Part shown: positions 1-37,902 of the stretch, piece by piece
Layout: the number at the start of each line of letters is the position of its first letter
Numbering within the stretch: the stretch's first letter is position 1
Assembly: GCF_037076345.1 (NCBI RefSeq)
Contig: NZ_AP024702.1
Coordinates: forward strand, 3,162,001 to 3,226,000
From: Haloferula helveola
Lineage (GTDB): Bacteria; Verrucomicrobiota; Verrucomicrobiia; Verrucomicrobiales; Akkermansiaceae
Direction: 5' to 3'
Length of the DNA: 64,000 bases
Notes under the pieces: model-generated
The model's input: only the letters and a program-made list of their open reading frames with translations
What the model was told of the DNA's origin: nothing
The model's database searches: none
Position numbers and translations under genes: made by a program

Positions 1-3000
1 TTCAGCTTCGGGGGGGACGTGACCCTCGAGAGTGTTTCTTCAGGCGCATCCGGCATCACCAACGCCTACCGCTTCACTGGTGGGGCGGGGGCATCCGGAA
101 CATCGCTGGACAGCTACACGGGCGGGCCGACCGGCCAGCCAGTGACCTTCGAGCTTTGGGTCAAGCCGGCCGACACCGCCTCGGGAAATCCTGACCAGGT
201 CATCTACGAGACGGGTGCGAACGGTGACGGCTGCGCGATCTTTTATTCGGTAGGCACTCCGGGAGACGGCATGGGCACGATTCGGTGGCTCACCAAGGAC
301 GGAGAATACGTGACCGTCAGTGCCGACATCAGCACCGCAGATTTCAGTCACATCGTTTGCATTCTGAACCAGAATATCTCCGGGGCCTTCGATCTTCAGG
401 AGATCTATGTGAACGGGGCGCTCGTTGATGACAACGACTCGACCACCGTTGGCGATGACGCGGCCAATGACCTGGATCACGAGACCCAAGACGACTGGGC
501 TGGCAGTGACTCGGCGAGCATGGGCATCGGTGGCTCCGGAACGGCCAACTCCGGCCTCTCGCCGGGCAATTTCGAAGGCGACCTCTCGGTCTTACGTGCC
601 TACTTCAGCCAAGCCCTGACCCCTGCCGAAATCCTTGCCAACTACAATGAGGACGCGGGTCCGGACACCACCGCTCCGATGCTCACCACGACCGACCCGT
701 TGGACGACTCGACCGGGATCTATCCTGGCACGGCACTCGTCGCCACCTTTGACGAGGACATCGAATTGACGACCTCCGGCAGCATCACGGTGACCGACAC
801 CACCGATGGCAGCGGAACATTCTCCATCGATCTCTCCAGCCTGCCTGATCCGGACGCGGATATCTCGGTTTCCGGAACCGATCTCACCATCATCCCGGCT
901 GCCAGTCTTGAATTCGGGACTGCCTACGAGGTTTCAATCGATGCCTCGTCGATCGTGGATCTCGCAGGTTCTCCGAATGCCTATGCGGGCACGGACGCCG
1001 GTGAATGGACGTTCGTGACGGCTGCTGCCGACGGCACCGCGCCGACGGTGACCGCTTTCGACCCGCTCGACGGTGCGACGGATTTCCCTGCCGCCAACCC
1101 TCTCTCGGTCACCTTTGACGATCCGATCCTTCTTGAAGCCTCGACGCCCACGACCGTGCTCGATGAGGACTTCGAATCGGATGCCGGCGGTTTCACGACC
1201 AACGGCACGCCGAACGACTGGGCTTGGGGCACGCCGAATTCCGACAACGCCGCCGGCCTTACCATCACCGCCGGCAATAGCGGTTCGAACTGCTGGGCCA
1301 CCAACCTCGGAGCTGGAGGCAGTCCTTCCGGCACCATCGACCCCTTGGCGGTCTCCGTTCTCCAAGGACCTGACGCGGCGGGCAGCGGGCTCGACCTGAC
1401 AGGTCTGGCATCCGCCCAGGTCCAGTTCGCCGCAGCCTCGGATACCGTGACCGGTGACGTGGTCGAAGTGCTGGTGAAGGAGGTCGGGACCAACACGACG
1501 CTGGTGACTGTGCCTGCGACCGCCTTGGCGCCGCCGCTGACGGAAGACTGGGCCACCTACGGCCCGTTTGATATTTCGGATGCCGTCGGCCACAACGTGT
1601 ATCTCGAGTTCCGCTACGAAGGTTCCAACAATACCTACATCGGTCTCTACATCGACGATCTTCTGGTGACCGGCAACAGTGCCGCCGCTGCTGTTACCTT
1701 GCGCAACCTGACGACCGGCAACGATCTGGTCATCCCTACCAGCGACAGCTCCCAACTGAGTGTTTCCGGAAACACGCTGACCATCACCCCGACTGGCGGA
1801 CTGGTTGTCGGCGATGACTACGCCGTTCGGATCGGCTCCCAAGTGGTGAAGAACTACAGCGATCTTTTCTTCGCGGGCATTGCCGACGACACGACTTGGA
1901 ACTTCACCACGTCATTCACCGACGGCGACTGGATTGCGGATGCCGATGGCAACTGGAGCGACGGTGCCAACTGGGATCTCGGGATCGTTGCGGACGGCCC
2001 CGGTGCGACCGCGAGCTTCGTGCTCGACCTGAGCGGCTCTCGAACCGTGACCCTGGATTCCGACCGGACGATCGGGAACCTCACCAAACAGGATACGCTG
2101 GGGAACAATGACAGTCTCACCATCAGCGGCAGCAGCACGCTCACGCTGGATGCCCTTGGCGGCACCCCGGTCATCACCAACGACAACACCGGCTTCGGTC
2201 CGGGTTTCGCGATCAGCGCCCCGATCACAGGCACCTCGGGTTTCATCAAGGACGGACCCGGACAGGTCCAGGTGACCAACGGTTCGACCAACTACACGGG
2301 CGACACCGTGATCAATGACGGCATGCTGTTCCTCGGTTCGATCGCTGTCGCAAACATCGGTGGCGGCAGTGGCCGGAACATCACCGTGGCCGACGGGGCC
2401 ATCGTTCAGCGGAACTGGCCGGCGATGGACAACGCCTTCCTCAATCGCTTGGTCGAGACCACCGACGAGATCGGAATCTTCCTCACCGCAACGGGCGGAA
2501 GCTATAACACGAACGATCTCGACTTCAGCAGCGGTGGCGCGGGAGCGGACCTGCCTAATGCCTTCCTCGGGACTTGGGCCGGCAACGGCGCGAAGAGCCA
2601 GTACGACGGAACGATCACGCCTGCAGCGGACAATTACCGCTTGGGACATCCCCAGCAGGGTGGATCCCTGCACATCCGGTCGGCACTGCCCGACGTCGGC
2701 GGTACGCCCCGCGGGCTCATCGTCGGCGGTGGGGCTGTCATCCTCGGAGCCGAGAACACGTTCACCGGTGACACCGTGCTCCGCGGCGGCCGCTTGTTCC
2801 TCGGTCGGCAACTCGCGATCCAAAACAGCGCGCTCAACGTCGGGAATGGCGATGGCGACGGCATCACCGGCCAGATCTGCTTCCTTAACAGTGGTGGTGG
2901 CGGTCTTCCCGAGATCGAGGTGACCGACCAACCGACCATTGGCGGTCTCATCGGTGCCCGTAATCTGGCGTCGATCTACAACTCGGGTAACCAGAACAAC

Positions 3001-3864
3001 ACGGCGCGTCTCGCCATCGGCTCGGTTCTGGGAATGACCCTCGACGTCGATGCGGGCAAGAGCTTCGAGTATTCGGGCAATGCCCGTCTGTCGTCGACGA
3101 TGTTCCTGAACAAGACCGGCGACGGAACACAGGCCCTGTCGGGCAACAACGACTACACCGGTGCGACCACGGTCAGCGGAGGAACGCTCGGTCTGGTGGG
3201 CGGCAGCCATGCCTCGCCGATCACGGTGGGCGCGGGTGCTGCGCTCGGGTTTACTCTGGGTTCTCCGACGACCTCGACCTCGACGGTCGATCTGACCAAC
3301 GGCACGGTGAAGATCACCGGAGCGGTCGACAACGCGTCGGACTACCTGCTGATGACCGCTTCGGGCATCACCGGTGTCCCGACCCTCGACACTCCGATCG
3401 CTGGCTATGAACTCCAGAAGCTGGCCGGCGATACCGAGCTGACCTTGGTCTTCGTCGGAGTCGGTGGAACCCCGTATGAGAGCTGGGCCGGTGGCTCGCT
3501 CTTCGAGGACGACGACAACGGCGACGGCGTCGATAATGGACTCGCCTTCATTCTCGGTGCGGCAGATCCGAATGCGAACGCGGTCGGTCTGCTCCCGGCT
3601 CCTGCCACCGAGCCCGGCTTCCTGACGCTGACCTTCGAGCGCCTTGACGGCATCGCGCCGGCGGTTCTGAGCGTCGAGTATGGTCCTGACCTTTCCTTCG
3701 GGAACACGGACGTGATTCCGCTGACCAGCCAGACGCTCGGCAGCGGTGTCGAGGTGGTCGTGGTCGACGGCAGCCCGACCGACACTGTCACCATCAAGAT
3801 CCCCGATACGTTCGAGTCCGCCTCCGGCACCCTGTTCGGTCGCCTGAGCGCCAGCGAGAACTGA
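1..3864 (+). CDS. Large secreted LamG / Ig-like / beta-strand-repeat protein (5' end outside window)
   Basis: The frame is open from base 1, so the true start and any signal peptide lie upstream; an in-frame GTG at 19 is probably internal. Visible order: a LamG/concanavalin-like sandwich (about residues 20-215); an SbsA-type Ig-like module (about 220-340); a second such module that seems to be split by an inserted jelly-roll-like domain (about 390-555, beginning near DEDFESDAGGF); then autotransporter-associated beta-strand repeats (ADGNWSDGANWD, GDGTQALSGNNDYTG). The C-terminus carries an acidic hinge (EDDDNGDGVDNGLAFILGA) and a ~90-residue beta-rich module ending LFGRLSASEN. The last ~487 residues are nearly the same as those of the next gene. 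No catalytic motif is visible. Probably a cell-surface or extracellular binding protein; role inferred from domains only. Confidence 0.85.
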   Translation, partial: FSFGGDVTLESVSSGASGITNAYRFTGGAGASGTSLDSYTGGPTGQPVTFELWVKPADTASGNPDQVIYETGANGDGCAIFYSVGTPGDGMGTIRWLTKDGEYVTVSADISTADFSHIVCILNQNISGAFDLQEIYVNGALVDDNDSTTVGDDAANDLDHETQDDWAGSDSASMGIGGSGTANSGLSPGNFEGDLSVLRAYFSQALTPAEILANYNEDAGPDTTAPMLTTTDPLDDSTGIYPGTALVATFDEDIELTTSGSITVTDTTDGSGTFSIDLSSLPDPDADISVSGTDLTIIPAASLEFGTAYEVSIDASSIVDLAGSPNAYAGTDAGEWTFVTAAADGTAPTVTAFDPLDGATDFPAANPLSVTFDDPILLEASTPTTVLDEDFESDAGGFTTNGTPNDWAWGTPNSDNAAGLTITAGNSGSNCWATNLGAGGSPSGTIDPLAVSVLQGPDAAGSGLDLTGLASAQVQFAAASDTVTGDVVEVLVKEVGTNTTLVTVPATALAPPLTEDWATYGPFDISDAVGHNVYLEFRYEGSNNTYIGLYIDDLLVTGNSAAAAVTLRNLTTGNDLVIPTSDSSQLSVSGNTLTITPTGGLVVGDDYAVRIGSQVVKNYSDLFFAGIADDTTWNFTTSFTDGDWIADADGNWSDGANWDLGIVADGPGATASFVLDLSGSRTVTLDSDRTIGNLTKQDTLGNNDSLTISGSSTLTLDALGGTPVITNDNTGFGPGFAISAPITGTSGFIKDGPGQVQVTNGSTNYTGDTVINDGMLFLGSIAVANIGGGSGRNITVADGAIVQRNWPAMDNAFLNRLVETTDEIGIFLTATGGSYNTNDLDFSSGGAGADLPNAFLGTWAGNGAKSQYDGTITPAADNYRLGHPQQGGSLHIRSALPDVGGTPRGLIVGGGAVILGAENTFTGDTVLRGGRLFLGRQLAIQNSALNVGNGDGDGITGQICFLNSGGGGLPEIEVTDQPTIGGLIGARNLASIYNSGNQNNTARLAIGSVLGMTLDVDAGKSFEYSGNARLSSTMFLNKTGDGTQALSGNNDYTGATTVSGGTLGLVGGSHASPITVGAGAALGFTLGSPTTSTSTVDLTNGTVKITGAVDNASDYLLMTASGITGVPTLDTPIAGYELQKLAGDTELTLVFVGVGGTPYESWAGGSLFEDDDNGDGVDNGLAFILGAADPNANAVGLLPAPATEPGFLTLTFERLDGIAPAVLSVEYGPDLSFGNTDVIPLTSQTLGSGVEVVVVDGSPTDTVTIKIPDTFESASGTLFGRLSASEN

Positions 3865-4006
3865 TCCGATCCCGAACTCTCCGCTACGGTTGCGGAGGGC
3901 GCATCACAACCAATCCAAGCACCCGTTGCGGCGGCCGCCTTTTTAAGGGCGGTCGGCGCTGTTTCAGCACCGGCCGTCCGACGAGGATGGTCCACGACTT
4001 CCATCC

Positions 4007-7000
4007 ATGAGAATCCCATCCGTTCGCAAACTTTCCTGCCTGCTTCCACTGGCTTCGGCGGCGACCCTCGCCATGTCTTCCGCTTCCGCCCAGCAGGCGG
4101 GTGCCAGTCCTGTCCGGATCTTCATCATGGCGGGGCAGTCGAACATGCTCGGCAAGGGCAAGGTCACCGGTGTCACGACACCCGGCACCCTCGACTACAC
4201 CGTGGCGAATGATCCCGACGGCCGATACCAGTTCCTCCAGAGTGGCGGCAGCTGGGTGGTGCGGGACGACGTTTGGATCCGGGATCAGGATCCGGTCACC
4301 GGAGGACTGACGGTCGGCTTCGGCGGTGAAGCGGCGGATCTGATCGGCCCGGAGTTGGGCTTCGGCCACAAGATCGGAGACTTCAACGACAGCCAGGTGC
4401 TGATCGTCAAGTGCGCTTGGGGCGGCAAGGACCTCGACTTCAATTTCTGCCCGCCCAGCCGACGGGTCGGTGAGCCGGCGCCCGTGACATCGAGCGACAA
4501 GGGATTCTACTACGAGGAAATCCTGCGGCTGGTGAGCGAGGCCACCACCAACCTCGGAACCTATTTCACTGACTACGACGGAGGCGGCTACGAGATCGCC
4601 GGCTTCTGTTGGCACCAGGGTTGGAACGACCGAATCAACGCAGCACGTAGCGCGGCCTACGAAACGAACATGGCCGCCTTCATTGAAGACATCCGCACCG
4701 ACCTCGCCACTCCCGGCCTGCCGTTCGTCATCGCCACCACCGGCATGGATGGGCTCGATGGCTACGGCTACACGCAGGTCGAGCAGGCGCAGCTCGCGAT
4801 GGCCGATCCGGTCGCCTATCCGGCGTTCGACGGCAACGTGGCCGTGGTCGATGCGCGCGGAACCTACAAGGGGCTCGACTTCTGGCAAACCGTCGCCAAT
4901 TCACCGAACGACGAGGGCTACCACTGGAACCGGAATGCGAAGACCTACCTGCACCTCGGCCTCGCGATGGGCGATGCCATGTCCCTGCTTTCGCCGGGCC
5001 GCTGTCCGTATCGCCTCGAGGCCGATGGTGGATCGGGCGGAGTCACCCTGAGCTGGCAGAACGGAACCGAGACGCCGACGAGCGTCCGCGTTCTTCGCGG
5101 CGGAGTCGAGATTGCCGCGGCTGCTCCGGCGGATCCTCCGGTCTTCGTCGATGCCGGCGCCACGTTGGGAGTCAATGACTACGAACTTCAGTTCACGATG
5201 CCGGGGGATGCGTGCGACCCGTTGACCCTGAGCTTCGACACCGGCATCTCCGGACTGGAGGCCAGGCGCCGGTTGAATGGCGTCAACCTTTCGTGGGACA
5301 ACAACCTCTCCTACACCGCGGTCAAGGTGAGCCGTAACGGCGCGGTGATCGCCGCCTCGCTTCCGCCCAACACGACGAGCTATGTCGACAACTCGCCACC
5401 TGCCGGGCTGCTGACCTACGAGGTCGAACCGACCGACCCCGGAACCACCGCAGCCGAAGTGCAGATCGAAGTCAGCGCCGCGCCGTCGGGCACGGCGGTG
5501 ATCTACGAGCCGTTCGACATGACCGCGGGCGCCGGTCTCGACGGAAATCCGGGCGGTCTCGGGATCGACGGCGAATGGGTCGCCGGCTCGACGCTGGTCG
5601 TTGATTCCACGGGCATGACCTTCGGTACGCTGCCGACCTTCGGCAACTCGATCATCCGGACGTCCGGCAACGGGTCGTGCTCGATCAACCTCGGCTCCGC
5701 CCTCGGCGATGCCGGCCTGCTCGATGATGGAGCCGAACTGTGGTTCAGCTTCCTTTGCCCGAACCCGGACAACATCAACGTCAGCCCGACCTTCGCGCTC
5801 GGAAACGAATCTCTCAGCAACGCCACCACCGTCGCCAATTCCGGCAGCGGCATCGGCGCGAGGATCCAGCAGGGCAGGTATCCGCAGGGGATGATCTACA
5901 GCAGCGGCGGTGTCGCGGGCACCACGCCCGACCAGACGACCCTCGGATCCGGCGAGCTCGCTCTGGTCGTCGGTCACATCACCTGGGGTGCCGACGCGGT
6001 CTCGCTCGACACGATCGAGATCTACACCCCCGGCACCGATCTCGTCCTCGATACTCCGCAATCGATCTCCGCGATTGTCGATCAGTCGACCTTCCAAGTG
6101 TTGTCCATGTGGGGGAATGTCACCGCTCCGAACTTCGACGAGATCCGCTTCGGCGCGACCTACGACGATGTGGTGGGGCAGGGGGTCGACACCTCGGACG
6201 ACTTCACGCCGCCGACGCCGGGCACGATGTCCTTCAGTAGCCCGCCGGCGGCGGTGTCGGACACGACCATCACCATGACCGCCACCGCGGCCAGCGACAC
6301 CAACGGCGTCGAGTACTACTTCGCCTGCACCGCCGGTGGCGGAAACGACAGCGGCTGGCAGGACAGCCCGGTCTACACCGACACCGGGCTTTCCGCGAGC
6401 ACGCTGTATTCCTACACCGTCCAGGCTCGCGACAAGTCGATCAACCAGAATCCGAACAACGCATCCCCCGCCGCATCCGCGACCACGTTGGCGCCCGATA
6501 CAAACCCGCCGCCCGTTCCGTCCTTCGCTTCGGCGCCGGCGGCTGTGTCGTTTAGCGAGATCACCATGACGGCATCTGCCGTCATCGATCCGGAGGGCAA
6601 CGATGTGGAGTACTACTTCACCTGTACTTCGGTTGGTGGAAATGACAGCGGATGGCAATCGGGCACGACCTATGTCGATTCCGGGCTCACTCCCGACACC
6701 GAGTATACCTATACCGTGAAGGCGCGCGACACGGCATCGGTTCCCAACGAAACCGCGGAGTCAGCGCCTGCCTCGGCCACCACCGACCCCTACACCGCCA
6801 CCGATGGAACGTGGGGCTTCGATGCCGACGGCAACTGGGAAGACGACACGAAGTGGTTGGCCAACACCGTCGCCGAGGGGCCGGGCGCGACCGCGTTCCT
6901 CACCCAGGATATTACCAATGACCGCACCATCTACCTCGCGCTCGACCGCACCATCGGCAGCATCGTCTTCACCGACTCGCCGTCCAGTTCGAGCAACCTT

Positions 7001-8728
7001 TCGCTCGCGGGCACCGGCAATCTGATCCTTGAAGCCTTGTCCGGCACACCGGTCATCGATGTCACGCAGAACGGCCGGCAGCTGACGATCAACAATGTGA
7101 TCGAAGGCACGCAGGGTCTTCAGAAGAACGGGCCGGGCCGTCTTTTCCTGAGTGCGAACAACACTTATTCGGGTCCGACGCTCGTGACGGACGGCTTCCT
7201 CAGCTTCCTCAACATCAGCCTCGCCGGCTTCGGCGGCGGCCGCGACATCGAGGTTTCGGAAGGCGCCATTGTCCAGCGCAACTGGCCGAACATGGACAAC
7301 GCGTTCCTCAACCGTTTGGTCGAGACCAGCGACGAGATCGGGATTTTCCTCACCGCGACCGGTGGCAGCTACAACGGCAACGACCTCGACTTCAGCAGCG
7401 GTGGAGCGGGGGCGGACCTGCCTAATGCCTTCCTCGGAACGTGGGCGGGCAACGGCGCGAAGAGCCAGTACGACGGGACCATCACGCCGGCCAGCGACAA
7501 CTACCGGCTGGGCTTCCCGGGGCAGAGTGGATCGCTCCACATCCGGCCGGCACTGCCCGATGTCGGCGGCACTCCCCGCGGACTCATCGTCGGTGGCGGC
7601 GCGGTGATCATCGCCGGCGACAACACCTTCACCGGCGACACCGTGCTCCGCGATGGCCGCCTGTTCCTCGGTCGCCAGCTCTGCCTTCAGAACAGCGCGC
7701 TGAATGTCGGCAACGGTGCCGGCGACGGCATCACCGGACAGATGTGCTTCCTCGCGAGCGGCAGCGGTGGCGTTTCGACCGCCCAGCTTACCGACCAGCC
7801 GACTCTCGGAGGCCTCATCGGTGCCCGGAACCTCGCGTCGATCTACAATTCCTCGAATCAGAACAACACCTCGCGGCTGGGTATCGGCTCGGTGCTGGGC
7901 ATCACCCTCGATGTCGATGCGGGCAAGAGCTTCGGGTATTCGGGCAATGCCCGTTTGTCCTCGACGATGTTCCTGACCAAGACCGGCGACGGCACGCAGG
8001 TGCTCTCGGGCAATAACGATTACACCGGCGCGACCACGGTGAGCGGCGGAACACTCGCCCTTGTGGGTGGCAGCCACACTTCACCGATCACGGTGGGTGT
8101 GGGTGCTGCGCTCGGGTTTACTCTCGGTTCTCCGACGACCTCGACCTCGACGGTCGATCTGACCAGCGGCACGGTGAAGATCACCGGTGCGGTCGACAAC
8201 GCGTCGGACTACCTGCTGATGACCGCTTCGGGTATCACCGGTGTCCCGACCCTCGACTCGGCGATCCCGGGCTACGAGCTCCAGAAGCTGGCGGGCGATA
8301 CCGAGCTGACGCTTGTCTTTGTCGGCGGCGGGACGCCTTACGCAACGTGGTCGGGCGGCGCGTTGTTCGAAGACGACGACAATGGCGACGGTGTCGACAA
8401 CGGGATGGCGTTCATTCTGGGCGCCTCGGATCCGAATGCGAGTGCGGTCGGCTTGCTTCCGCAAACGGGCAGCGAGCCTGGCTTCCTAACGCTGACCTTC
8501 CAACGTCTCGACGGCATCGCGCCGGCGGTGCTGAGTGTCGAATACGGTCCGGACCTTTCCTTCGGAAACACGGATGTGATTCCGCTGGCCAGCCAGACGC
8601 TCGGCAGTGGTGTTGAAGTGGTCGTCGTTGACGGGAGCCCGACCGACACCGTCACGATCAAGATTCCGGACACCTTCGAGTCCGGCGCGGGCACGCTCTT
8701 CGCCCGACTGAGCGCGACGGAGAACTGA
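4007..8728 (+). CDS. Secreted SASA-type acetylesterase fused to beta-strand repeats
   Basis: 1573 residues. A signal peptide (about 1-27, ending ASAQQ) precedes a sialate-O-acetylesterase-like (SASA/DUF303) domain at about 35-330. The nucleophile block MAGQSNM, the block CWHQGWND and the catalytic-His block EGYHWNRNAKTY are all visible. Next come Ig/Fn3-like segments, a beta sandwich (about 500-725), two similar Fn3-like repeats (about 745-925, each with EYYF and DSGW), then autotransporter-associated beta-strand repeats. The C-terminal hinge and beta module match the preceding gene. Known SASA enzymes deacetylate decorated carbohydrates such as xylan or sialic acids, so this is probably an extracellular polysaccharide deacetylase. 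The substrate cannot be read from sequence. It lies 142 bp behind its paralogue. Confidence 0.88.
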   Translation: MRIPSVRKLSCLLPLASAATLAMSSASAQQAGASPVRIFIMAGQSNMLGKGKVTGVTTPGTLDYTVANDPDGRYQFLQSGGSWVVRDDVWIRDQDPVTGGLTVGFGGEAADLIGPELGFGHKIGDFNDSQVLIVKCAWGGKDLDFNFCPPSRRVGEPAPVTSSDKGFYYEEILRLVSEATTNLGTYFTDYDGGGYEIAGFCWHQGWNDRINAARSAAYETNMAAFIEDIRTDLATPGLPFVIATTGMDGLDGYGYTQVEQAQLAMADPVAYPAFDGNVAVVDARGTYKGLDFWQTVANSPNDEGYHWNRNAKTYLHLGLAMGDAMSLLSPGRCPYRLEADGGSGGVTLSWQNGTETPTSVRVLRGGVEIAAAAPADPPVFVDAGATLGVNDYELQFTMPGDACDPLTLSFDTGISGLEARRRLNGVNLSWDNNLSYTAVKVSRNGAVIAASLPPNTTSYVDNSPPAGLLTYEVEPTDPGTTAAEVQIEVSAAPSGTAVIYEPFDMTAGAGLDGNPGGLGIDGEWVAGSTLVVDSTGMTFGTLPTFGNSIIRTSGNGSCSINLGSALGDAGLLDDGAELWFSFLCPNPDNINVSPTFALGNESLSNATTVANSGSGIGARIQQGRYPQGMIYSSGGVAGTTPDQTTLGSGELALVVGHITWGADAVSLDTIEIYTPGTDLVLDTPQSISAIVDQSTFQVLSMWGNVTAPNFDEIRFGATYDDVVGQGVDTSDDFTPPTPGTMSFSSPPAAVSDTTITMTATAASDTNGVEYYFACTAGGGNDSGWQDSPVYTDTGLSASTLYSYTVQARDKSINQNPNNASPAASATTLAPDTNPPPVPSFASAPAAVSFSEITMTASAVIDPEGNDVEYYFTCTSVGGNDSGWQSGTTYVDSGLTPDTEYTYTVKARDTASVPNETAESAPASATTDPYTATDGTWGFDADGNWEDDTKWLANTVAEGPGATAFLTQDITNDRTIYLALDRTIGSIVFTDSPSSSSNLSLAGTGNLILEALSGTPVIDVTQNGRQLTINNVIEGTQGLQKNGPGRLFLSANNTYSGPTLVTDGFLSFLNISLAGFGGGRDIEVSEGAIVQRNWPNMDNAFLNRLVETSDEIGIFLTATGGSYNGNDLDFSSGGAGADLPNAFLGTWAGNGAKSQYDGTITPASDNYRLGFPGQSGSLHIRPALPDVGGTPRGLIVGGGAVIIAGDNTFTGDTVLRDGRLFLGRQLCLQNSALNVGNGAGDGITGQMCFLASGSGGVSTAQLTDQPTLGGLIGARNLASIYNSSNQNNTSRLGIGSVLGITLDVDAGKSFGYSGNARLSSTMFLTKTGDGTQVLSGNNDYTGATTVSGGTLALVGGSHTSPITVGVGAALGFTLGSPTTSTSTVDLTSGTVKITGAVDNASDYLLMTASGITGVPTLDSAIPGYELQKLAGDTELTLVFVGGGTPYATWSGGALFEDDDNGDGVDNGMAFILGASDPNASAVGLLPQTGSEPGFLTLTFQRLDGIAPAVLSVEYGPDLSFGNTDVIPLASQTLGSGVEVVVVDGSPTDTVTIKIPDTFESGAGTLFARLSATEN

Positions 8729-34568: not shown

Positions 34569-36335
34569 ATGTCGAAGGAAGGGAAAGCGAGGCCGGGCGC
34601 GGCGCTTGGTTGGTTGTGGAAATACCTGCGCCCGCATCGCGCGATCTTCATTCCCTCGCTGATGGCCCTCTTCGTAACGGCGGGGCTCGCCTTGGTGTTC
34701 CCCCTGCTGCTGAAGGACCTGATCGGCGATCCGGCCGACGCGTGGCGCAACGGTGTGGATCCGTCCGCCGTGATGGACGGCCTCAACCGCAACCTCAAGT
34801 GGATGCTGGCCGCGCTCAGTCTGCAGGCCTTCATCGGCTTTTGGCGGGTTCTCGGATTCATCAAGTCGGGTGAGGCGGCGCTGAACGAATTGCGTCGCGA
34901 GCTCTTCAGCCACCTGCTTCGACTACCGGTGCCGTACTTCGAGGAGCAACGATCCGGAGCGCTGAGCACCCGTGTGGCCGCCGATCTTTCGGTCGTCCGC
35001 GAGACGCTGATGAGCACGGTTCCGCAGGCAGTGCGTCAGATGGTGATCCTGGTCGGTGGCCTGATCGCCGTGTTCTATTTCTCTCCACGACTCGCACTGG
35101 TGATGCTGGCCAGTGTGCCACTGGTGGTGCTGGCGGTGGCGATCTTCGGACGCAAGGTCCGCGGCCGTTCGCGCGAAGCGCAGGATGCGCTGGCCGACGC
35201 GGGCACGGTGATCGAGGAGAGCGTGCAGAGCATTCGCGACGTGAAGGCCTTCGGAAATGAGGACTTCGAGAACCGGCGCTACTCCCACGCCCTCGACCGT
35301 TTCATCGGTGTGACGATGAAGGGTGCCTTGGCGCGGGCGGGATTCCTCTCGTTCATCATCCTTGTGATGTTCGGAACCATCGCGGGCGTGGCGTGGTATG
35401 GCGCGCGCCTGCTGGTGACCGGCGGCATCGACAATGAGGACTTCGTCGCCTTCCTGCTGTTCAGCGTGTTCGTGGCGGCCTCACTCGGATCGTTTCCCGA
35501 GATCGTTTCCCAATTCCAGGCGATGAGTGGCGCGACCGACCGCATCCGCGAGATCCTCGCCGATACACCGGAGAGCGGTGGCAGTGATGATGCGGAGGGG
35601 CTCGAAGGACGGGTCGAACTCGACAAGGTCAGCTTCCGTTATCCTTCGCGGCCCGATCGCGTGGTGCTGGACGGCTTGTCATTCCATGTCGCGCCCGGCA
35701 GCCGGGTTGCCTTGGTCGGACCGTCGGGTGCAGGAAAATCGACGGTGTTTTCGCTGATGCTCGGCTTCCATCGCCCTGAGGAAGGGGAGGTCCGGTTCGA
35801 TGGAAAGTCGGCCGCCGACTTCTCGCTGAAGTCGCTGCGCTCCAGCATGGCGATGGTTCCGCAGGAGGTGCTACTTTTTGGCGGAACGATCCGCGAGAAC
35901 ATCGAGTACGGCCGGCCCGGCGCGACACCCGAGGAAATTGAAGCAGCGGCCAAGGAGGCGAATGCCCACGGTTTCATCGAGGACCTCCCGGACGGCTACG
36001 ACACGGTGGTCGGTCCGCGCGGCGTGAAGGTCTCGGGAGGTCAGCGGCAGCGGATCGCGATCGCCCGGGCGATTCTGGCGAATCCGAAGATCCTGCTGCT
36101 CGACGAAGCGACGAGTGCGCTCGATGCCGAGAGCGAGCGACTGGTGAACGAAGCTCTGGAACGCCTGATGAAGGACCGGACGAGCCTGGTGATCGCGCAT
36201 CGCCTGTCGACCGTCCGCGATGCTGACCGGATCGTGGTGATCAACTGCGGACGGGTCGCCGAGTCGGGAACCCACGACGAACTGATGGCAGGCTCCGGCA
36301 CCTACCGGCTGCTGGTCGAGACGCAGCTCAGTTGA
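34569..36335 (+). CDS. MsbA-like ABC exporter (permease-ATPase fusion)
   Basis: 588 residues from ATG 34569 (MSKEGKARPGAALGWLWKYL); a TTG 36 bp upstream is an alternative. Six membrane helices (about 30-330) are followed by an ATPase domain with Walker A GPSGAGKST, signature VSGGQRQR, Walker B ILLLDEATSALD and the switch His (IAHRLSTV). The ATPase starts about residue 355 (VELDKVSFRYPSRPD). Half-transporters of this kind act as homodimers and often flip lipids; MsbA flips lipid A. Placement after cdsA-dxr fits envelope lipid work, but multidrug export is equally possible. Confidence 0.9.
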   Translation: MSKEGKARPGAALGWLWKYLRPHRAIFIPSLMALFVTAGLALVFPLLLKDLIGDPADAWRNGVDPSAVMDGLNRNLKWMLAALSLQAFIGFWRVLGFIKSGEAALNELRRELFSHLLRLPVPYFEEQRSGALSTRVAADLSVVRETLMSTVPQAVRQMVILVGGLIAVFYFSPRLALVMLASVPLVVLAVAIFGRKVRGRSREAQDALADAGTVIEESVQSIRDVKAFGNEDFENRRYSHALDRFIGVTMKGALARAGFLSFIILVMFGTIAGVAWYGARLLVTGGIDNEDFVAFLLFSVFVAASLGSFPEIVSQFQAMSGATDRIREILADTPESGGSDDAEGLEGRVELDKVSFRYPSRPDRVVLDGLSFHVAPGSRVALVGPSGAGKSTVFSLMLGFHRPEEGEVRFDGKSAADFSLKSLRSSMAMVPQEVLLFGGTIRENIEYGRPGATPEEIEAAAKEANAHGFIEDLPDGYDTVVGPRGVKVSGGQRQRIAIARAILANPKILLLDEATSALDAESERLVNEALERLMKDRTSLVIAHRLSTVRDADRIVVINCGRVAESGTHDELMAGSGTYRLLVETQLS

Positions 36336-37902
36336 ATTCCCCGGCGCCGACCTCAAGGCGGAGGAAGACGGCCGGCGCGTTGCGGTTGACGGTGATCGTA
36401 ACCAGCCGCGTTCCGTTTTCCGCGGGTCCGAAGATCACGGTGCCCGAGGCGTCCTGCCAATTCGTCAGGTCGGTGGAGCGGGCGAGACGCCATGGAGTGC
36501 CGTCGATGAGTTCGTAGGGATTCGCGGGATCGAAGAGTGAATCCGAAATCCGGAACGAGGCATCGATGGAGGTGGCTGCCACCGTAAGCATGACGGGATC
36601 CGGCCGGCTTGCCGGGTCGGCGGGCGAGGTGCCGTGAAAGGTTTCCAGCAGGTCGTCGAACCCGTCGCCGTCGGTGTCCGCCGGAGTTCCCGAGCCGCCG
36701 GCGCTTCCCGATCCTTCGGGGGCCAGTTGCACGATCGTGCCAGCATAGGCGGAGGCGATCAGGAGGCTCTCGGTATCGGTAGGACTGAGACCGGCATTGA
36801 GCGACAGTTCGACGAGGGCGGCGGCACTGGCGAAGGCGGCCGAGACGCTGGTGCCGTTCACTTCATCGTAGATGCCCGGCTGCGGGTCGTCGAAGCGCAG
36901 GGTGCGCACGGTATCGCCCGGTGCGGAGAGATCGAGCGCGCTGCCGTGGTTGGAAATCGCGGTGAGTTGATTGTCGAAGCCGCTGGCGCCGACGCAGATG
37001 ATGCCGGACTCGGTGCCGAAGGCGGAAGGGACGTAGTCTTCCGCGAGGCTGCCTTCGTTTCCGGCGGAGACGACGACCGTGATGCCGGCATCGACGGCGT
37101 CTGCCAGCGCGTATTCCAAGAGCGAGCTGCCCGAAGCGGTCGAACTGCCCAGCGCGAGGCACATGACGGCCGGGAGTCCGTCGTTCTGCTCCAGGTGGTG
37201 GTCGATCGCCATGTAGATGCCATTGGCGACCAGGCCCGAGGTGGTGGCGGGGCCGTTCGGGTAGACATCGATGCTGACCAGCCGCACAGGCGTGCCGCGG
37301 GCGGCTCCGCACTCGGGGCCGGAGATTGCGGAAAGCATTCGCGTGCCGTGTTCGAAGATCGAGGAGCTTGTCGGATCGCCTTCGCCGCGGCTCAGGAAGT
37401 TCGCTTCGAGAAGGAGCTTCGGGTTGGCGTCGAACCAGTTGTTCGGATTCGAGACCGCGGTGTCGATCAGGTAGAGGCGTGTCTCGCCGCTGGTCTCGGC
37501 ATAGGCGAAGTCGACCACGTCCGGCGGTGTCGTGGTGCTTGAACCATCCTCAAGACGGGCAAGGGCCCAGCCGGCATCGGAATCGACGGTGTTGGGACGC
37601 AGTTGGACTTCGGGTTCGGCGATGACGCCGCCGAGTGAGAGGACCGAGGCGACATCGAGAATGTTGGCCTTTCCGATCACCGCCCGACGGCTGTCGGTGC
37701 CGCGGTCGATCTCAAGGTAAACCTGAACCCCGAGGTCGTTGAGCTCGTCCGTGATGGCGTCTACCGTTCGAGGAATCAGAGCGTTTGGATCGGGTCGGAA
37801 GATCCAAGGATCGCGGCGCAAGAGATCCTGACCGCTGGCTGCGGGAAGGAGGAGTGGGAGGGCGATCAGCCAAAGCCTTTTGAGGCGGGACAGGGGGAAC
37901 AT
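36328..37902 (-). CDS. Secreted subtilisin-like serine protease with C-terminal beta module
   Basis: 524 residues from ATG 37902, which gives the signal peptide MFPLSRLKRLWLIALPLLLP; the frame runs further upstream into repeats. A propeptide-like segment (about 40-125) precedes the S8 domain: Asp147 (LYLIDTAVS), His185 (FEHGTRM), oxyanion Asn282 (VSAGNEGS) and Ser352 (NGTSVSAAFASAAA). After the catalytic domain come a Gly/Ser linker, an acidic hinge (DTDGDGFDDLLETFHG) and a ~100-residue beta module ending VFLRLEVGAGEFN, much like the two giant proteins at the window start. It converges on the ABC exporter, their ends overlapping by 8 bp. Confidence 0.92.
   Translation of the reverse strand: MFPLSRLKRLWLIALPLLLPAASGQDLLRRDPWIFRPDPNALIPRTVDAITDELNDLGVQVYLEIDRGTDSRRAVIGKANILDVASVLSLGGVIAEPEVQLRPNTVDSDAGWALARLEDGSSTTTPPDVVDFAYAETSGETRLYLIDTAVSNPNNWFDANPKLLLEANFLSRGEGDPTSSSIFEHGTRMLSAISGPECGAARGTPVRLVSIDVYPNGPATTSGLVANGIYMAIDHHLEQNDGLPAVMCLALGSSTASGSSLLEYALADAVDAGITVVVSAGNEGSLAEDYVPSAFGTESGIICVGASGFDNQLTAISNHGSALDLSAPGDTVRTLRFDDPQPGIYDEVNGTSVSAAFASAAALVELSLNAGLSPTDTESLLIASAYAGTIVQLAPEGSGSAGGSGTPADTDGDGFDDLLETFHGTSPADPASRPDPVMLTVAATSIDASFRISDSLFDPANPYELIDGTPWRLARSTDLTNWQDASGTVIFGPAENGTRLVTITVNRNAPAVFLRLEVGAGEFN

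Follow-up and report, generated by a model that had tools for sequence, protein, structure and literature searches.

To our knowledge, it is an open question how Verrucomicrobiota bring their giant enzymes and surface proteins to the cell exterior. The question is raised here by a 64,000-nucleotide stretch of the Haloferula helveola chromosome (hereafter, the window) in which three genes end alike. The original prediction held that two giant proteins and a subtilase, with different N-terminal enzymes, share an acidic hinge and a C-terminal beta module that could act as an attachment or secretion signal. Hinge and module were found at or near the predicted places in all three proteins, and a profile search of the window with the tail returned exactly three matches, the two giants and the subtilase. 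The features concerned are as follows.

1..3864, forward strand: giant protein 1, 1350 residues, with Big_5 and PATR repeats followed by the tail; its first 189 bases precede the window
3463..3861, forward strand: C-terminal tail module of giant 1, 133 residues, directly before the stop codon at 3862-3864
3511..3546, forward strand: Ca-binding-type loop of the giant 1 hinge, DDNGDGVDNGLA, putatively binding Ca
3598..3855, forward strand: predicted seven-stranded FnIII/Ig-like beta sandwich of giant 1, with a near-invariant F-x-R in its last strand
4007..8728, forward strand: giant protein 2, 1573 residues, with a signal-peptide-like start, a SASA carbohydrate esterase, PATR and the tail
8327..8725, forward strand: C-terminal tail module of giant 2
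36328..37902, reverse strand: subtilase, 524 residues, with a signal-peptide-like start, Peptidase_S8 and the tail
36331..36684, reverse strand: C-terminal tail module of the subtilase, 118 residues, a divergent family member, from the profile and a separate AlphaFold2 model

The predicted sharing of the tail among three proteins stands as homology, but the giants are paralogues across their last ~648 residues (77% identity) and alone count as a single observation. Different N-terminal enzymes, as claimed, are present in giant 2 (SASA) and the subtilase (S8), but giant 1, with its Big_5/PATR architecture, contains no recognised enzyme domain; a weak fn3 match in giant 2 falls below the cut-off. 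Pairwise BLAST between the subtilase and a giant sees only the hinge (54 residues, E 3e-4 when only the two sequences are compared, uncorrected for composition), so that full-length homology has to be sought with profiles, which were therefore used. A giant-type model, built from 30 tails all found with the tail of giant 1, matches the subtilase at E 5.9e-5 (best domain 4.4e-4) among 6,773 ORFs, and the region that it matches is the last ~120 residues. With a broader 26-tail model from which the subtilase tail was left out, the value improves from 5.9e-5 to 5.4e-9, which is not fully independent because 3 of the 26 rows had been brought in by the subtilase tail. Shuffled or reversed ORFs gave no match to the tail profile at E<1e-3, which rules out a composition artefact as the source of the matches. 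The three tails of the window are thus confirmed as members of one homologous module of about 130 residues.

Giant 1, the first giant of the window, is one of four consecutive large tail-bearing genes in a row that extends over genome positions 3154089-3170728 (L001:4089-15864 plus window 1-8728); a gene that looks sulfatase-like by eye lies upstream of this row (L001:1430-2815). The tails of the four genes are 80-91% identical, and front ends lack a BLAST match in three of the six pairs.

The module is abundant in the 5.68 Mb genome, where the tails of giant 1 and the subtilase alone find 38 and 41 places, respectively (up to E 10). At the 30 loci returned for the giant 1 tail, the ORF ends 0-16 residues past the match. 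A profile from an alignment of 30 tails (A1), the basis of the genome-wide count, gave at least 148 matches up to E 1 and at least 123 at E<1e-3, with 150 of 309 candidates scored. These 123 copies, a lower bound, are distributed over 122 ORFs, and of the 123 distinct ORFs in which a domain reaches i-E<1e-3, 122 have a single copy. The ORF ends no more than 5 residues past the modelled module end in 111 of the 122, where about 3.6 would be expected under uniform placement, and in none does it end 6-20 residues past. The remaining 11 comprise four partial matches, which stop before model position 100, and seven nearly full-length copies, which reach position 126 or beyond and are followed by 36, 177, 177, 247, 418, 454 and at least 997 residues (the last a lower bound set by the end of the DNA stretch taken). 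These seven count against a strict terminal signal, which should not allow them. Three nearly full-length non-terminal copies lie at genome positions 882497, 3418608 and 3988203; by eye, two of these carry a ~177-residue choice-of-anchor-J/MAM-like extension and the third a SASA-like domain. In L151 (genome 438067), the tail is followed by 36 more residues with a Cys-rich end.

From its N-terminal side, the module has a Trp-helix, then a D-x-D/N-x-D-G Ca-type loop, then a predicted sandwich that ends in F-x-R-L just before the stop codon. The consensus of 87 full-length terminal tails begins Y-d-x-W-a ... D-x-D-G-D-G-v-x-N-g-l-E-f-x-l-G-x-D-P, continues L-P ... v-E-x-S-t-D-L-x-x-W and closes with d-t-V-T-v-t-i-P ... 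l-F-x-R-L-x-v-t-e-P and the stop. Position 12 of the loop is Glu in 63 of these 87 tails and Ala in giant 1; judged from its motif, the loop may bind Ca. Few positions are conserved as strongly as the last-strand F-x-R (F in 86 and R in 79 of the 87), and 91 of the 111 terminal tails have an F-x-R type motif within their final 25 residues, compared with 4.3% of random 25-mers from the same proteins. Conservation extends to the very end: the final residue is Pro in 58 of the 111, against an overall Pro frequency of 5.4%, and is P, E, N, D or Q in 101.

AlphaFold2 predicts the giant 1 tail (pLDDT 90.5, pTM 0.81) as two short helices about a loop followed by seven strands. Modelled separately from 12 sequences, the subtilase tail (pLDDT 85.5, pTM 0.73; residues 1-14 poor) shows the same strand order, here with a single helix and, counting those of at least 3 residues, six strands. 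Foldseek returned no match to the giant tail at E<=0.001; its best match was a CBM21 starch/glycogen-binding domain at E 2.6e-3, with TM-scores below 0.5. The best VIA match of both tails was the FnIII-containing beta common receptor (giant tail: Z 7.0, rmsd 2.9, 78 aligned; subtilase tail: Z 8.5, rmsd 2.3, 80 aligned). These matches are weak and would indicate the fold type only, FnIII/Ig-like.

Sequence searches of Pfam, NCBIfam and PDB returned no entry that covers the tail. Searched against NCBIfam up to E 1, the 30 tails matched only Amuc_1099_fam, PRK11627.1 and throspo3_MtsD; the matches to Amuc_1099_fam, a pilus-like protein family, are weak (4 of 30 tails, best E 5e-5), and the subtilase stretch that matches this family (E 0.21) begins at the hinge. 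Among the matches listed in the open-licence literature, a corpus that leaves most subscription journals outside and here includes the available parts of PMC4960237, PMC3482391 and PMC9426571, none describes such a tail.

Most of the proteins that carry the module start like exported ones. By a home-made heuristic, 89 of 109 testable module ORFs have a signal-peptide-like start, against a mean of 17.9 with shuffled N-termini, and several of the 20 heuristic-negative ORFs appear exported by eye. The matches are therefore not mostly on cytoplasmic proteins, nor are they mostly internal, though 11 of the 122 ORFs are non-terminal; the pattern that the original prediction expected of a profile, C-terminal matches on apparently exported proteins, is what was found. 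The 111 terminal ORFs are long (median 1296 residues, range 113 to 3274, at least 600 in 103), and their front ends are diverse. A Pfam scan of 109 of them (46 + 50 + 13; first 1250 residues at most, E 1e-5) gave lower bounds of at least 23 with PATR, 14 with a SASA esterase, 14 with LamG_3, 6 with a sulfatase and 5 with GSDH; S8, M60 and M66 peptidases, GDSL, lipases, lectins and endonuclease/phosphatase-type domains occur singly or in a few.

Tails exchange independently of this cargo. Among the eight closest members (28 pairs), the tails are 71-97% identical; front ends lack a BLAST match in 13 pairs, and the tails of those pairs are still 71-91% identical. The neighbors at 3161072 and 3165466 have 91% identical tails and front ends without a BLAST match. 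Seen from the cargo side, at least 33 ORFs have PATR repeats (150 of 233 candidates scored): 26 have the module, two have none, and five have a divergent copy (L238, L239, L242, L243 and L244, from a search of 8 ORFs), that of L242 passing by its best domain only (1e-5; whole-ORF E 8). The PATR ORF of L240 (genome 2842300-2848300) gives no profile match, and by eye its end resembles the sandwich without the Ca loop.

Beyond this genome, the tail is present in much of the phylum. In a survey of 288 genomes, with at most 14 candidates scored per genome, a match at E 1e-5 was found in 131 and no match in 157. Fifteen chosen positive genomes gave 111, 100, 74, 120, 63, 35, 6, 34, 41, 54, 20, 8, 19, 65 and 108 matches at E 1e-3; six of these counts are lower bounds, and the richest genome thus has at least 120. 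A contig search with the giants' subtype found 21 relatives, in Akkermansiaceae, Akkermansia, Verrucomicrobiaceae, Haloferula, Rubritalea or Opitutae. The module is terminal in 28 of 29 new loci from the phylum search and in 25 of 26 module ORFs at the 21 named loci, all of them best matches rather than a random draw; the two non-terminal cases are one internal copy and one partial match whose frame runs off its locus. Another genome of the same class (G169) has a 6792-residue open frame with the tail at its end (L114). Plasmid records gave no match for the two tails searched. Phylum-level profiling covered Verrucomicrobiota alone; C-terminal modules with an S-x-D-L-x-x-W ... F-x-R-like pattern occur in other PVC bacteria.

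What could such a tail do? A module that stands at the terminus, occurs once per protein, has a conserved free end, is joined to unrelated exported cargo and exchanges independently of it fits a targeting or attachment tail and is hard to reconcile with a plain spacer. We consider it somewhat probable that the tail folds into a C-terminal module for targeting, serving either as an export signal or as an anchor once another route has exported the protein. We posit that an N-terminal Sec-type signal would carry the large proteins across the inner membrane, and that the Trp-bearing short helix, the Ca-type loop and the FnIII/Ig-like sandwich would then fold at the extreme C-terminus. A putative receptor or secretion apparatus could read the free C-terminal edge of the tail, formed by the last strand with its F-x-R-L and the handful of residues behind it (the final one commonly Pro, Glu or Asn), and either take the cargo to the outer surface or hold it there. 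A bolder extension, which we offer only tentatively, is that the richest genomes possess an uncatalogued outer-membrane export or surface-attachment route beside the exosortase, addressed by this tail and used by at least 100 mostly very large proteins. The idea of an attachment or secretion signal, as originally predicted, thus gains from the export-type starts, the C-terminal placement, the diverse cargo and the 131 positive genomes, but loses from the 11 non-terminal ORFs and from the failure to find dedicated machinery. The non-terminal copies and the lack of an identified receptor are the main points against targeting; the 157 surveyed genomes without a match, the very common FnIII/Ig fold, which is used for mere spacing or binding too, and a single cohesin in the genome are counted against it as well. 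SprA_N (PF14349) had no match in the genome, but none in the control genomes either.

In a plainer reading, rather unlikely in our estimate, the tail simply caps the C-terminus: a FnIII/Ig-like domain, stabilised by Ca, would protect or stiffen the end of long secreted proteins or make them generally sticky, without being read by a receptor or serving transport. A common fold with generic structural matches only, the nearly full-length copies that are not terminal and a hinge weakly like bacterial TSP3 repeats speak for a cap; yet a cap does not obviously need to be present once per protein, to end within 5 residues of the stop or to have a biased last residue. Alternatively, the tail could bind carbohydrate or exopolysaccharide and tether proteins to the capsule of the cell itself or to their substrates. 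That CBM21 is the best Foldseek match and that sugar esterases, sulfatases and lectin-like proteins are frequent among the cargo would suit such a module, but the CBM21 TM-scores are low, and peptidases, an endonuclease/phosphatase-type protein and PATR proteins are among the cargo too. CBMs are often present in multiple copies and at either terminus of a protein, unlike this single, C-terminal tail, and we regard glycan binding as improbable.

The targeting reading can also be set against systems in which a C-terminal tail is known to direct export. The closest functional analogue is the C-terminal domain (CTD) of RgpB, described in the available part of PMC4804311 as a type IX export signal that forms a C-terminal seven-stranded Ig-like sandwich and has its targeting signal within the last 22 residues. 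The Verrucomicrobiota tail, too, closes exported proteins with a seven-stranded Ig-like sandwich, here predicted, so that the likeness is one of shared fold type only, and its conserved last-strand F-x-R recalls a signal near the end. It differs in adding the Trp-helix and the Ca-type loop and in its ending, where F-x-R-L is followed by a short stretch, often with Pro as its final residue. In sequence terms it is not a CTD: none of the 30 tails matches TIGR04183 or TIGR04131, which we take to be the curated type IX CTD models present in NCBIfam, up to E 1, and no type IX CTD was recognised among the structural matches listed for the tails. That the tail is itself a divergent type IX CTD, with a type IX system in the same genome, is thus very improbable; the genome has no SprA_N match, though the control genomes gave none either.

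Autotransporters with a PATR passenger are a second point of reference, since many tail-bearing ORFs hold PATR repeats; the module, however, seems to occupy the place where the beta barrel would be. The autotransporter beta barrel (PF03797) was found in this genome only at 1379439-1381413, 3734273-3734917 and 235543-235725, none of them at a module ORF, and an autotransporter (type Va) reading was set aside. The Ca-type loop resembles those of TSP3 and dockerin in its D-x-D/N-x-D-G pattern and frequent Glu at position 12, but the tail has a single loop, joined to a sandwich and below Pfam cut-offs. Only 3 of the 30 tails match the bacterial TSP3 repeat (PF18884), weakly (best E 0.015, below the Pfam cut-off), and the subtilase scores 13.8 bits against a cut-off of 25. 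Dockerin is absent from the 11 Pfam families listed for the 30 tails, and cohesin has one match in the whole genome (L245, genome 1095048); attachment through dockerin and cohesin was set aside on these two grounds. Towards its C-terminus, the L245 cohesin ORF has a stretch that looks dockerin-like by eye.

PEP-CTERM offers a further parallel. It was first met in a verrucomicrobium as a C-terminal homology tail on many exported proteins, as the available part of PMC1569441 relates, and both PEP-CTERM and the module are such tails and occur in this genome, which also has two EpsH-like exosortase frames (L062 and L063), one over the cut-off. The module is a predicted folded domain, whereas PEP-CTERM consists of a PEP motif, a membrane helix and a basic cluster, and none of the 30 tails matches PF07589. 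The module's cargo is long and that of PEP-CTERM short: the 29 PEP-CTERM ORFs over the cut-off have 211-395 residues (median 297, against 1296 for module ORFs), and none of them is a module ORF. The two classes of C-terminal tail thus split exported proteins largely by cargo size. With at least 111 ORFs in one genome, the tail marks out candidates for surface or secreted proteins and offers a handle for annotating uncharacterised giant proteins. As a query for phylogenetic profiling, it could reveal a new secretion or anchoring machine, much as PEP-CTERM, on the account in the available part of PMC1569441, led to EpsH.
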